This document shows positions 51,869-55,974 of a stretch of DNA of 62,738 bases, piece after piece (position 1 is the stretch's first letter; each line of letters opens with the position of its first letter). A model generated the notes under the pieces. The model was given only the letters and a program-made list of their open reading frames with translations, ran no database searches and had not been told where the DNA came from. A program made the position numbers and the translations under genes. Source of the stretch: a bacterium (GTDB lineage: Bacteria; Actinomycetota; Acidimicrobiia; Acidimicrobiales; CATQHL01); assembly GCA_026708055.1 (NCBI GenBank), contig JAPOVS010000040.1:93400-156137 (forward strand). Reading direction: 5' to 3'.

Positions 51869-52405
51869 CTACGACCCCTCGATAACCGCTGAGCGAGCGA
51901 TTCTGACCAGGTGATTCGCCAGACCAAGCAACTCCAGAGCGGTTACAGGGTCGTCGAGGTACGCATGCTCGTGAGCCCGGGGATTGCGTATGCCTGTCAT
52001 GACGGCGCCGAACATCTCCATGTAGCCCCGCTGCTGGTTCTTCTCGGACTGCGTCCGCAACTCGTTCAGCTTCAGCACCGGGTTGTTCAACGAGAAGGCG
52101 TTCTGCATCAAGTCGACGCCATCCAGATGATGTAGACCAGTCAGATCCTTCACGACGTTGTTGAGGCACTTGTACGCCTCCTCGACTGCAAGCGCGTAGT
52201 AGCCGTCAAGGAACAGCTTCCGGCTCGTTCGCCGCAACTCGTCGTCATCAACCACCTGGTCGAAGGTCGGCGACTCGAACTCACCGGGCGGCAACGACGG
52301 GAGCGGGCCAGCAAGTCCCACCGATCCCGCATCCTCGGAGATCGCCTTCGCCAGTGCAAGACCTCGCACCGGACCATCGCCCCGTCGTCGGCTACTCGCC
52401 GCCAT
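51869..52405 (-). CDS. TIGR02391-family HEPN-like protein
   Basis: A 178-residue protein. The core LFLDGYYALAVEEAYKCLNN, LMQNAFS, and GAVMTGIRNPRAHEH is that of the TIGR02391 (Ymh) group; RNPRAH is an RX4H HEPN motif. These proteins are found in accessory regions and are suspected defence or abortive-infection RNases. The ATG at 52405 overlaps the end of the small upstream gene by 14 bp, suggesting an operon. Function is inferred from the motif only. Confidence 0.72.
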   Translation of the reverse strand: MAASSRRRGDGPVRGLALAKAISEDAGSVGLAGPLPSLPPGEFESPTFDQVVDDDELRRTSRKLFLDGYYALAVEEAYKCLNNVVKDLTGLHHLDGVDLMQNAFSLNNPVLKLNELRTQSEKNQQRGYMEMFGAVMTGIRNPRAHEHAYLDDPVTALELLGLANHLVRIARSAVIEGS

Positions 52406-52622
52406 ACAGGTGCTGGGCCATGCTCTTGAAGATCTGGTCGATCTGTCCGGCGGAGGCATCTGAGGAGATATGGATCTGGACGTTGATGTTGAGCTCCGGA
52501 TCGGGGCGCCGGTTCTTCACCGCCTCCCCGCCCTCATCCACGAAACCAGGGCTAACTCTCGGCGTCTTTGCGGTCGCCTTCGTCGCGGCGGTCCTCTTCT
52601 GCGTCGGTGCCGCCTTCGTCAC
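52392..52622 (-). CDS. Small hypothetical protein upstream of the HEPN-like gene
   Basis: A 76-residue protein from GTG 52622. The N-terminal 30 residues are Lys/Ala/Thr-rich; the end (LNINVQIHISSDASAGQIDQIFKSMAQHLYGG) is a beta strand and helix seen at the C-terminus of some DUF5343-like defence-island proteins. It may be a truncated relic of such a protein or a genuine small partner of the HEPN-like protein; the 14-bp overlap favours the second. Confidence 0.6.
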   Translation of the reverse strand: MTKAAPTQKRTAATKATAKTPRVSPGFVDEGGEAVKNRRPDPELNINVQIHISSDASAGQIDQIFKSMAQHLYGGE

Positions 52623-53217: not shown

Positions 53218-53973
53218 GTGGCAATCAACCCCGATAGTGCGCTTGAGGTGCTTACCGAGTTCCGCGACCTGCTTCGACTGAACGAGCAACTCCACGGTCA
53301 GTACGGCTCCGCAGCGGCAGAAGGTCACGAATCCAATCAACGACTCCGCGAACTGGAGCCGCTCGTCGAGAAGATCGCCGCCGCGATCGAGGTTGATCGC
53401 AACAGGCATCGCCCGCACGGCCACATGCTGATGACCGCCGGCATGTGGTGGTGGTCCAACCGCGTCGGATGGGTCGATCGCCTCATCGGCATCCTGCGGA
53501 ACCGCACGCGAGAAGACGACGTCTTCACGCCAGCGGGTCCGAAGCTCGATGCCGCCAATCTCCATCGATGGGTTTGGCACGCCGCCACGGACCTCTGGGA
53601 CAGTGGCCACTACCGGGAAGCCGTACAGAGGGCCGCGACAGCCGTGGAGGAGCAAACACGCCTAAAGCTTGAGAGCACGGAGCCAAGCGCAGCCGATCTC
53701 TACATGAACGCATTCAAGTCCAAGACCGACCCCGGGGACCGACGCTTGCGGTTCGTGGATCTCCAAGCCGCAACTGTCGATGGTCAGAAAACCCCCGACT
53801 GGCGATCCGCCCACGATGGAGCAGCACACTTCGGGCGCGGATGCGCACAAGCCATTCGAAATCTCGCCACGCACAGGACTGATGACCTCACCGAACAAGT
53901 CGCGCTCGAATACCTCGCCGCTCTCAGCGTCCTTGCCCGATGGGTCGACACGGCAACTCTCGAGGTCGGCTAG
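53218..53973 (+). CDS. TIGR02391-family HEPN-like protein (Ymh type)
   Basis: A 251-residue protein. After a helical N-terminal domain (about 1-120, with Trp-rich GMWWWSNRVGWVDRLIG), the C-terminal half has the TIGR02391 pattern: HAATDLWDSGHYREAVQRAATAVEE, LYMNAFKSKTD, GAAHFGRGCAQAIRNLATH. RNLATH is an RX4H motif. The start is a GTG at 53218 with a strong GAGGAGG. It converges with the Fic gene, the two stop codons sharing a CTAG. A second member of the same family lies 0.8 kb away on the other strand. Confidence 0.8.
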   Translation: MAINPDSALEVLTEFRDLLRLNEQLHGQYGSAAAEGHESNQRLRELEPLVEKIAAAIEVDRNRHRPHGHMLMTAGMWWWSNRVGWVDRLIGILRNRTREDDVFTPAGPKLDAANLHRWVWHAATDLWDSGHYREAVQRAATAVEEQTRLKLESTEPSAADLYMNAFKSKTDPGDRRLRFVDLQAATVDGQKTPDWRSAHDGAAHFGRGCAQAIRNLATHRTDDLTEQVALEYLAALSVLARWVDTATLEVG

Positions 53974-54557
53974 CTGCGTGCGAATGCGAGCAGTTCGTCG
54001 ATCTCTCCCGCGTCTGCTCGCTGGAGGGCTTGGTGGTAGGCGGCCCTCAAGTCCTCGGTGTTGACGTCGAGACTGATTCCCCAACCGAAGCGGGGATGGC
54101 CGAGGGCCGTCACGAGGTAGTCCGCTGCGATCCGGCTGTGCCGGCCGTTGCCGTTGGGGAAGGGGTGGATGGCAACTAGGCGGTGGTGGAAGCGCACGGC
54201 TAGCTCGTCGGGCTCGTACGCCTCGTGGTCGACCCAGGCGATGGCGTCGTCGACGAGCGTCCTCACAGATACGGAGATCTGCGACGGATCGATGCCGATG
54301 TTGGTCGCGCGGAGGCGGTAGCGGCCGGCCCAATCCCAGACCTCGCTGAACATGTCCCGATGGAGATTCCGCAGGTAGCCGTCGTCGAGAAGCGAGCGGA
54401 CTGACGGGGGCCGGCGGAGTAGCGCCAGGGCGATGTTGCGCTGCTCCGCGGCGAACAGGTCACCGCGAGTGATGATGTGGCTGGGGATCAGCCCGACACG
54501 ATCATCCTCGGTGAGTTCCGTGTGGCCGTCACCGACGGGAAGGAGCGGATCGCTCAC
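53970..54557 (-). CDS. Mobile mystery protein B (Fic-domain AMP transferase)
   Basis: A 195-residue Fic protein. The active site is HPFPNGNGRHSR (131-142), with the catalytic His and phosphate-binding GNGR intact; Asn replaces the usual Asp/Glu that positions Mg, as in other members of this family. DMFSEVWDWAGRYR is the typical upstream helix. The GTG start at 54557 overlaps the stop of mobile mystery protein A (GTGA). The A/B pair behaves in genomes like a toxin-antitoxin unit; the target protein is unknown. Confidence 0.9.
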   Translation of the reverse strand: MSDPLLPVGDGHTELTEDDRVGLIPSHIITRGDLFAAEQRNIALALLRRPPSVRSLLDDGYLRNLHRDMFSEVWDWAGRYRLRATNIGIDPSQISVSVRTLVDDAIAWVDHEAYEPDELAVRFHHRLVAIHPFPNGNGRHSRIAADYLVTALGHPRFGWGISLDVNTEDLRAAYHQALQRADAGEIDELLAFARS

Positions 54558-55021
54558 GTGGTCTGACCCTCGATCCACAGACCGCGGTGGTCGGCGAACC
54601 AGGAGGCGAGTTCCTCCACTTGGGCTGCAAGCTCGTCCTCGGAAACCTCCTGGGCCTCCAGGCGTCCGTGATGAACGACGTGAGCCAGATGCCGCACGGC
54701 CTTGCGTCGCGCCTGGGTACGGACGATCTCCTCCAGTGTCGTGCGCGGTACGAGGGCGTAGACGAGTTCGCAGTCCATTGCCTCCGCGGCCCGCGACAGG
54801 GTCTCGAGCCTCGCTGTGGCCAGCCGCTCGCTGCGTTCGATCTCCGACACCACCTGCTGGCTGACCCCCATGCGCGCGGCCAGTTCGGTGCCGGACATTC
54901 CGAGGGCGTCGCGGATTGCCCGGATCCACCCCTTGTTCGGGCGGCCTAGGTCGCCGAGACTGCGGACCGACTCGTAACGATCGTCGAGTTGCCGTCGAGC
55001 TTGAAGTTGGGTGCGCTCCAT
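54554..55021 (-). CDS. Mobile mystery protein A (XRE-type HTH regulator)
   Basis: A 155-residue protein: RPNKGWIRAIRDALGMSGTELAARMGVSQQVVSEIERSE is an XRE helix-turn-helix, followed by LSRAAEAMDCELVYALVP and a helical C-terminal region. It is the constant partner of mobile mystery protein B and probably its antitoxin and repressor. Two copies of TACAG-N8-CTGTA lie immediately upstream of its ATG at 55021. Confidence 0.9.
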   Translation of the reverse strand: MERTQLQARRQLDDRYESVRSLGDLGRPNKGWIRAIRDALGMSGTELAARMGVSQQVVSEIERSERLATARLETLSRAAEAMDCELVYALVPRTTLEEIVRTQARRKAVRHLAHVVHHGRLEAQEVSEDELAAQVEELASWFADHRGLWIEGQTT

Positions 55022-55032
55022 GAAACAAAGTC

Positions 55033-55082
55033 TACAGGTTCTAGACTGTATTTACCAGAAGTTCTACAGTGTATAGCCTGTA
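55033..55082 (-). promoter_or_regulatory. Paired operators TACAG-N8-CTGTA upstream of mobile mystery protein A
   Basis: Two identical-arm inverted repeats at 55033-55050 and 55065-55082, centres 32 bp apart, about three DNA turns. The nearer begins 12 bp before the start codon and should overlap the promoter. The stretch is AT-rich compared with its surroundings. Confidence 0.7.
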
Positions 55083-55092
55083 GCTCCTGCTC

Positions 55093-55118
55093 TGGATTCC
55101 GGCCTTCGCCGGAATGAC
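55093..55118 (-). repeat. REP-like palindrome, copy 4 (inverted)
   Basis: ATTCCGGCCTTCGCCGGAAT with flanks TGG and GAC, the most perfect of the four copies and in opposite orientation to the others. It lies between mobile mystery protein A and dapB, at the island boundary. Confidence 0.7.
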
Positions 55119-55173: not shown

Positions 55174-55974
55174 TTAGAGGCCGAGGAGGGGTTCGAGGCC
55201 GATGGTTAGGCCGGGGCGGTTGGCTACTGCTCGGACTGCCAGCAGGGTTCCTGGCATGAATGAGGACCGGTCGTAGGAGTCGGCGCGGAGTGTGAGGGTT
55301 TGGCCCTGGGCGCCGAGGATGACCTCCTGGTGTGCCACCAGGCCGGCTAGGCGCACCGAGTGGACTCTGATGCCGGCGGGGCCTAGTCCGCCTCGGGCGC
55401 CGGGGAGTAGCTCGGTGCGGGTTGGGTCGGGGTTCCATTCGCCCGAGGCGGCGGCCATGCGTTCGGCGGTCATCATGGCGGTGCCGGAGGGGGCGTCCAC
55501 CTTGGCGTCGTGGTGCAGCTCGATCACCTCGGCGCTGTCGAACAGCGGCGCCGCCAGCTCGGCGAAGCGCATCATCAGCACCGCGGAGAGGGCGAAGTTG
55601 GGGGCGATGATGCAGTTGCTGCGCTCGAACAAGCCGGCGATGTGCTCCAGGTCCTCGGGGGTGAATCCGGTCGTGCCGACGACGGCGTGGATGCCGCCGG
55701 CGGCCAGGCCGGCCAGGTTCCGACGGGCCGAGTCCAGCACCGTGAAGTCCACGGCGACCTCCACGGCCGTCGCGACGAAGGCGTCCGGATCGGCAGCCAC
55801 GGTCACCCCGCCCGCATCGCCGGCCGCCTCCTCGCCGATCAGTTCGGCGACGGTCGCTCCGGCCGCGGCGGGATCCACCGCAGCCACCAATTGCAGGTCC
55901 TCCGCGGCCACGACCGCCGCGCACACGGTCCGCCCCATGCGGCCGGCGGCGCCGAGCACACCGACTCGGATCAT
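55174..55974 (-). CDS. dapB: 4-hydroxy-tetrahydrodipicolinate reductase
   Basis: A 266-residue NAD(P)H-dependent reductase for the second step of the diaminopimelate pathway. The nucleotide-binding VGVLGAAGRMGRTV is at 4-17; VVGTTGF and the catalytic ELHHDAKVDAPSGTA (His-His and Lys) are present, and the end is complete. It is shown on the minus strand downstream of pnp, as in other actinobacteria. In those genomes dapA and rnj lie a few genes further on, but here the island intervenes. Confidence 0.95.
   Translation of the reverse strand: MIRVGVLGAAGRMGRTVCAAVVAAEDLQLVAAVDPAAAGATVAELIGEEAAGDAGGVTVAADPDAFVATAVEVAVDFTVLDSARRNLAGLAAGGIHAVVGTTGFTPEDLEHIAGLFERSNCIIAPNFALSAVLMMRFAELAAPLFDSAEVIELHHDAKVDAPSGTAMMTAERMAAASGEWNPDPTRTELLPGARGGLGPAGIRVHSVRLAGLVAHQEVILGAQGQTLTLRADSYDRSSFMPGTLLAVRAVANRPGLTIGLEPLLGL

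Follow-up and report, generated by a model that had tools for sequence, protein, structure and literature searches.

Phased palindromes as probable operators of mobile mystery A/B genes and a partial code relating their half-sites to the recognition helix of protein A

Mobile mystery proteins A and B are named for being unexplained, and the locus described here raised the question of what the two palindromes directly before the A gene do and which protein reads them. An earlier note, made from the sequence alone, had placed two TACAG-N8-CTGTA operators in the window, i.e., the whole stretch of 62,738 nucleotides that was analyzed, with 32 bp between their centres. Both were found exactly as claimed (Table 1); their starts, and hence their centres, are 32 bp apart, and the distal centre lies upstream of the proximal one. 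The homologous operator position in relatives supported the proximal site. The exact motif occurred in the window at these two sites only, whereas 0.00 occurrences were expected from 100 dinucleotide shuffles and 0.011 from base composition. In the 3.9-Mb genome, the exact motif was again confined to these two places and one mismatch added five more; a reversed control pattern with one mismatch allowed gave 20 matches, compared with 7 for the motif. As composition alone predicts 0.67 exact copies in the genome, the lack of further copies is unsurprising, whereas the pair is surprising. The operators fall within a 42% G+C patch of the 70% G+C window, and their centres lie approximately 20 bp (proximal) and 52 bp (distal) from the ATG of the A gene. 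The pair is real and non-random, and in all likelihood it is functional.

Table 1. Coordinates of the operators, genes, and neighbouring features in the window.
Feature	Position	Strand	Remarks
Proximal operator, TACAG-N8-CTGTA	55033..55050		TACAGGTTCTAGACTGTA; minus-strand reading TACAGTCTAGAACCTGTA
Distal operator, TACAG-N8-CTGTA	55065..55082		TACAGTGTATAGCCTGTA; minus-strand reading TACAGGCTATACACTGTA
Presumed -10 element, TAGACT (TANNNT)	55029..55034	-	First two bases within the gene-side arm of the proximal operator; by comparison with relatives
Putative -35 position, TGGTAA	55052..55057	-	Weak, 3/6 consensus bases; inferred; TTGA near this offset in homologs
Mobile mystery protein A (XRE HTH)	54554..55021	-	155 aa; directly downstream of the operators
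Conserved L-E-x-Q of A (residues 118-124)	54650..54670		End of the long C-terminal helix
Mobile mystery protein B (Fic domain)	53970..54557	-	195 aa; GTG start
Dispersed palindromic element	55093..55115	-	ATTCCGGCGAAGGCCGGAATCCA; directly upstream of the distal operator
dapB	55174..55974	-	Next gene upstream
Hypoth_Ymh (PF09509) protein	53218..53973	+	Downstream of A/B
Hypoth_Ymh (PF09509) protein	51869..52459	-	Downstream of A/B; passes the TIGR02391 cut-off

The gene behind the operators had been named as mobile mystery A, an XRE protein, with the Fic protein B as its partner, and profile searches bore this out. The A product scored 158.6 bits against TIGR02612 mob_myst_A (cut-off 122.6) and contains the Pfam domain HTH_3; the B product scored 206.6 bits against TIGR02613 mob_myst_B (cut-off 124.4) and contains the Pfam domain Fic. 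The start of B overlaps the stop of A by 4 nt. The layout of a type II toxin-antitoxin system was present, with adjacent or overlapping genes and the DNA-binding partner first. Among the homologous loci with room for a further gene, B was the downstream neighbour of A in 113 of 128. No B was detected downstream of A in 15 of the 128 (L005, L012, L013, L030, L031, L085, L096, L108, L117, L119, L141, L151, L175, L192, and L194), which may represent solitary A genes, an overlooked B, or a broken B. No operator or DNA target for mobile mystery A/B was met in passages of the literature that name the family; the terms operator, promoter, autoregul, and represses were absent from PMC13327609, and no Xre-Fic pair was named in the portion of PMC2701414 consulted. 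A passage of PMC3936711 terms a relative of A beside a Fic gene in a cas locus an antitoxin. A tblastn search of phage records with A gave no match.

We collected homologs from genome contigs, further stretches, 20 plasmid stretches, and whole genomes, the last drawn from the order and phylum of the window and from the phyla to which the loci with Opitutaceae and Pseudobdellovibrionaceae in their titles belong. The 141 loci were reduced to 120 with an A protein of at least 105 bits and 150 nt upstream, to 108 distinct loci, and finally to 90 below 85% identity, which formed the discovery set; an upstream region of 220 nt was examined. A held-out set of 48 new loci gave 41 non-redundant ones, which together with the discovery set made 131, and the lag prediction was fixed in writing ahead of these loci. 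Taxon labels were taken from record titles and search centres; locus L007 is titled Acidobacteria, but its own phylum draw gave genomes of the window's phylum.

Inverted repeats with 5-bp arms upstream of A were counted in the 90 discovery loci at each spacer. N4, N6, and N8 repeats numbered 85, 110, and 98, against 32, 33, and 31 expected, respectively; odd spacers from N1 to N11 gave 23-56 against 31-32 expected, with N5 (56) and N7 (46) mildly raised. Lag identity, in which an upstream sequence is compared with itself shifted and which is free of any motif, reached its maximum at 33 bp in the discovery set (excess 0.070, z 8.5, 90 loci) as well as in the held-out set (excess 0.069, z 5.8, 41 loci); three control sets gave z values of 1.3-1.6. 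A second peak appeared at 66 bp with an excess of 0.029. Within the range 28-38, the best lag was 32-34 in 67 of the 90 discovery loci (24.5 expected) and in 32 of the 41 held-out loci (11.2 expected), the latter comprising 6/10 from Acidimicrobiales and 26/31 from Bdellovibrionota. The corresponding figures were 23/90 (24.5 expected) and 44/122 (33.3 expected) in two control regions taken from these loci, and other XRE genes, used as a control, gave 7/14 (3.8 expected). When the lag was left free between 18 and 60, 33 was best in 45/90 discovery and 20/41 held-out loci, against 6/131 after shuffling, and 32 was best in 12/90 and 5/41.

The array model, with 7-bp half-sites and a spacing of 31-34 bp, surpassed the 95% shuffle level in 104 of the 131 loci (72/90 discovery, 32/41 held-out) and the 99% level in 59/90 and 25/41, respectively; an array above the 95% level was lacking in 27 of the 131 homologs. 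By group, the 95% level was exceeded in 23/29 loci of Actinomycetota, 59/76 of Bdellovibrionota, 12/14 of Verrucomicrobiota, 1/1 of Fermentibacterota, and 9/11 of Pseudomonadota plasmids. The model replaced a best-arm scan without array constraint, which was noisy and exceeded the 95% shuffle level in 53/90 loci. Its spacing counts are conditioned on 31-34 bp, the unconditioned tests of spacing being the lag-identity and free-lag analyses; the fitted arrays also include spacings of 31, 32, and 34 bp. The fitted copies numbered two in 28, three in 66, and four in 9 of 103 loci, counts that may include false sites because the third site fitted at the window locus (L001) was the dispersed palindrome of Table 1, which we rejected as an operator. 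This element has 131 copies in the window's own genome with at most one mismatch (74 forward, 57 reverse), and its reversed control has none.

Operators 33 bp apart repeated one another with an excess identity of 0.46 (122 pairs); the corresponding value for the linkers was 0.06, falling to approximately 0 in mid-linker. Because the linkers hardly repeat while the operators do, a recent tandem duplication is an unlikely source of the arrays. The fixed spacing also makes cooperativity of two A dimers likely, as a prediction. The earlier note had put the two dimers on one DNA face at three helical turns; this stood approximately, as, with a turn of 10.5 bp, the modal spacing of 33 bp corresponds to 3.14 turns and a spacing of 32 bp to 3.05.

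We assessed the motif itself across the family, as the earlier note had called for a comparison of regions upstream of other A/B pairs. The architecture proved widespread (104/131), whereas the literal TACAG failed for most pairs. Among the first 22 loci, the exact TACAG-N8-CTGTA was found in the window locus and its close relatives L003 and L004 alone, and TACAG was the consensus half-site in 5/103 loci. Half-sites were clade-specific, with TACAA, GTCTA, TTCCG, GATGC, GGTGC, and others besides TACAG. TACAG as a family motif was therefore dropped in favour of the architecture and a recognition code. The code was analyzed in 103 loci, L013 having been removed by hand from 104 as the best array fitted there fell on a spurious GC-rich stretch.

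Every well-filled column of A was compared with bases 1-7 of the half-site using mutual information with APC correction. In the top four couplings, residue 57 was paired with base 5, residue 55 with base 2, residue 60 with base 6, and residue 56 with base 3. These pairs run collinearly along the recognition helix, which spans residues 55-66 in the structure model. In the window's A protein, the helix starts at Q55, and Q55, Q56, V57, and E60 are the presumed specificity residues. The preferences, for which the four residue-base pairs were chosen and counted on the same data, were pronounced at the first two positions: Q55 occurred with A2 in 30/31 loci and Q56 with C3 in 33/35. At residue 57, alanine (19/22) and arginine (14/15) went with A5, threonine with G5 (20/25), and serine with G5 more weakly (15/25). 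At residue 60, aspartate or glutamate went with G6 (15/18), lysine with C6 (7/10), and glutamine with T6 (24/34). In the table reading, Q55Q56 was accompanied by ACA at bases 2-4 in 15/15 loci, and ACA occurred in none of the remaining 88.

Couplings outside the helix ranked close behind, that of residue 131 with base 2 being fifth, and shared ancestry accounts for part of this coupling. Among protein pairs below 50% identity, sharing of the four residues predicted sharing of the bases with a partial r of 0.34, compared with at most 0.055 in 300 permutations and at most 0.116 when four other HTH columns were drawn at random 300 times. When whole clades were left out, the accuracy was 64-70% for residue 55 to base 2, 58-61% for 56 to 3, 71-73% for 57 to 5, and 53-60% for 60 to 6. 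For bases 3, 5, and 6, the coupled residue beat all 52 other HTH columns at four of four cut-offs; for base 2, residue 55 was best at two of four, and another HTH column was better at the other two. The code is therefore partial, given the leave-clade-out accuracy of 53-73% and the better column at base 2. Six of the genomes with two A genes were also compared: two pairs of A proteins with 78-79% identity had the same half-site, and four pairs with 34-38% identity had differing half-sites. Because the half-site covaries with the recognition helix of A, A itself is very probably the binder of the array.

We examined where the operators lie relative to the promoter. A sigma-70 consensus scanner called no promoter between 53900 and 55250, and the layout was deduced from homologs. 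When TTGA was scanned at 85 offsets around the proximal centre, 24 of 60 occurrences started at -19 to -16, once each in 24/103 loci. TANNNT, scanned in the 101 of 103 loci with a usable start codon, had a peak at +7 from the proximal centre (16/101) and a bigger one at 0 (20), which reflects the TATA-like centre of the operator. Given TTGA at -19 to -16 and TANNNT at +7, the proximal operator appears to fill the spacer between the -35 and -10 elements in part of the homologs (at least 24/103). The median distance between start codon and operator centre was 19 nt, and 27/101 loci had a Shine-Dalgarno-like string; therefore, leaderless or short-leader A/B transcripts are likely in homologs. In the window, the presumed -10 element ends 7 nt before the ATG of A, which makes a leaderless transcript likely there. 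Operator centres leaned to TATA, with T at base 8 in 0.75 and A at base 9 in 0.63; such centres would fit DNA bending like that of the HipB complex described in passages of PMC3376134.

We propose, with considerable confidence, that A dimers bind a phased array of their own operators and thereby auto-repress the A/B operon. Repression of the A/B pair through these operators had been suggested earlier, and we consider it very likely in view of the arrays in 104/131 loci, the covariation of helix and half-site, and the overlap with the promoter. An A dimer would insert the opening turns of both recognition helices (Q55, Q56, V57, and E60) into the two ACAG half-sites of a palindrome. The proximal dimer would then mask the region from the -35 to the -10 element and switch the operon off, and a second dimer, followed by a third in most relatives, would sit 32-33 bp upstream, about three helical turns away. 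Neighbouring dimers would probably touch, so that the array fills jointly. The A/B genes would thus be auto-repressed in the manner of a type II toxin-antitoxin operon in which A responds to its own abundance and perhaps to the ratio of A to B. Binding, repression, contact between dimers, co-repression by B, and the role of B as a toxin held by A are what we infer from the sequences and models.

Several other explanations were weighed against auto-repression by A. A chance pair of palindromes or a dispersed repeat is barely conceivable: a dispersed palindrome with 131 copies does adjoin the distal operator, but it differs from the operators in sequence, shuffling predicted 0.00 exact copies, the operators were kept in relatives with diverged flanks, and the family array was confirmed in the held-out loci. 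The operators could instead serve another regulator, such as a global or SOS-type repressor, with A just as its target, and the CTGT/ACAG arms do resemble SOS boxes, which are read in the opposite arrangement, CTGT-N8-ACAG. Further sites in the genome would be expected for a global regulator, whereas the exact motif stands here alone, and the half-site shifts clade by clade with the recognition helix of A. We therefore regard another regulator as very improbable.

Two further alternatives keep A as the binder. It is rather unlikely, though far from negligible, that A dimers act singly and that the 33-bp spacing goes back to a tandem duplication or results from promoter geometry. Fitted spacings of 31, 32, and 34 bp and the tie between the proximal site and the promoter position in many homologs would agree with dimers acting singly; however, linkers that are almost unrelated (0.06) mark the copies as old with their distance kept, and promoter geometry leaves unexplained a further operator another 33 bp on (lag 66). 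A more serious possibility, to which we give appreciable but clearly less than even weight, is that the repressor is a complex of A and B that bridges neighbouring operators, A alone being a weak binder. The neighbourhood of A and B in 113 of the 128 loci with room and the gene overlap in the window are consistent with such a complex, as is the co-repression by HipA with HipB according to a passage of PMC3920265; the 15 loci without a detected B downstream argue against it.

For the auto-repressed array of A operators, HipB offered the closest layout, and an HipB-like architecture with a pitch of 32-33 bp instead of 28 bp is the best reading. According to passages of PMC3376134 and PMC3920265, the Xre antitoxin HipB binds cooperatively to four TATCC-N8-GGATA sites; as in A/B, the hipBA operon has the Xre antitoxin gene first, preceded by several 18-bp palindromes with 5-bp arms and N8. 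HipB also carries glutamine at the position of residue 55 together with A at base 2, in agreement with the code of A, whereas its threonine at the position of residue 57 occurs with C at base 5, against the code table. The systems differ in the spacings of the hip operators (28, 39, and 28 bp in the E. coli record, compared with 32-33 bp in the A/B arrays), in the partner, which is the kinase HipA rather than a Fic protein, and in the protein itself, as HipB (88 aa) is without the long N-terminal helix and C-terminal helical region of A. A scored 30.8 bits against TIGR03070 couple_hipB, under the cut-off of 71.65, and a two-sequence BLASTP of A and HipB gave no meaningful similarity; therefore, the alignment of the two rests on the shared HTH fold. 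The structure model of A (pLDDT 92) matched HigA, HipB, and other XRE HTH proteins over approximately residues 25-95 with Z scores of 7-9. No XRE match stood out, HipB chains scoring 7.4-8.2 against the HTH part, much as other XRE proteins did, and the comparison hardly extended to the long helices at the N and C termini.

The phage 434 repressor and 434 Cro were weak sequence matches of A (E 0.1-0.8); their recognition helix, which starts Q-Q, reads ACAA-type half-sites. We take the coupled residues of A to be the classical contact positions. The 434 operators are 14 bp long, and ACAR thus lies one base further from the dyad in the A/B operators. Unlike A, the 434 repressor is not a toxin-antitoxin partner.

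We also compared A and B with class I Fic pairs (VbhT/VbhA, EcFicT/EcFicA, and Fic-1/AntF), which resemble them in being two-gene operons. Class I Fic antitoxins are small and have the motif (S/T)xxxE(G/N). The structure model of B (pLDDT 92.7) was closest to Fic-1, FICD, VbhT, and EcFicT, tied at a Z score of approximately 17. In A proteins, E122 was conserved in 122/131, Q124 in 121/131, and S/T at -4 in 76/131. Around E122, the window's A protein carries H at -4 together with A at +1 and therefore departs from the strict motif. E122 of A could, by analogy, be the Fic-inhibitory glutamate of class I Fic antitoxins; since the window's protein is without the flanking residues of the strict motif, we put this forward as a suggestion. 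In the consulted part of PMC3667792, class I Fic antitoxins are described as providing an inhibitory helix with a glutamate, whereas A is an HTH protein. The same source gives HxFx(D/E)GNGRxxR as the motif of AMPylating Fic enzymes. The window's B departs from this motif, its active site reading HPFPNGNGRHSR, with asparagine at the D/E position. The same position was N in 99 of 102 readable motifs of B homologs and D in 3, the motif being unreadable by the pattern used in 12 of 114 B proteins. The asparagine variant suggests a changed chemistry or regulation of B.

The family thus gains a probable target on the DNA, an outline of its promoter, and a code that can be read in part, so that every member lends itself to direct tests of binding, auto-repression, and antitoxin function. 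The constant pitch of 32-33 bp across phyla, with linkers nearly unrelated, points to a strong structural constraint on how dimers meet. With the table relating helix residues to bases, the operator of a member yet to be characterised can be guessed to a first approximation, so far with limited accuracy; the table also offers candidate orthogonal repressor-operator pairs. Speculatively, and with more doubt than belief on our part, mob_myst_A may be a natural library of largely orthogonal repressors that spans phyla on a fixed 33-bp lattice with the promoter in the first site; the half-site and four helix residues would change together under an almost collinear code, and the pitch would come from B, an Asn-variant Fic protein with possibly other chemistry, linking neighbouring A dimers.

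Some smaller observations concern expression and the neighbouring genes. The mobile mystery B gene mll2066 is listed with 4.02, in unverified units, in a table excerpt of a Mesorhizobium loti heat-shock paper (PMC3989490). The A/B unit of the window lies between dapB and the Ymh genes. The dapB gene (209.3 bits) is on the same strand as A/B, and of the two Hypoth_Ymh proteins downstream, the minus-strand one alone passed the TIGR02391 cut-off.
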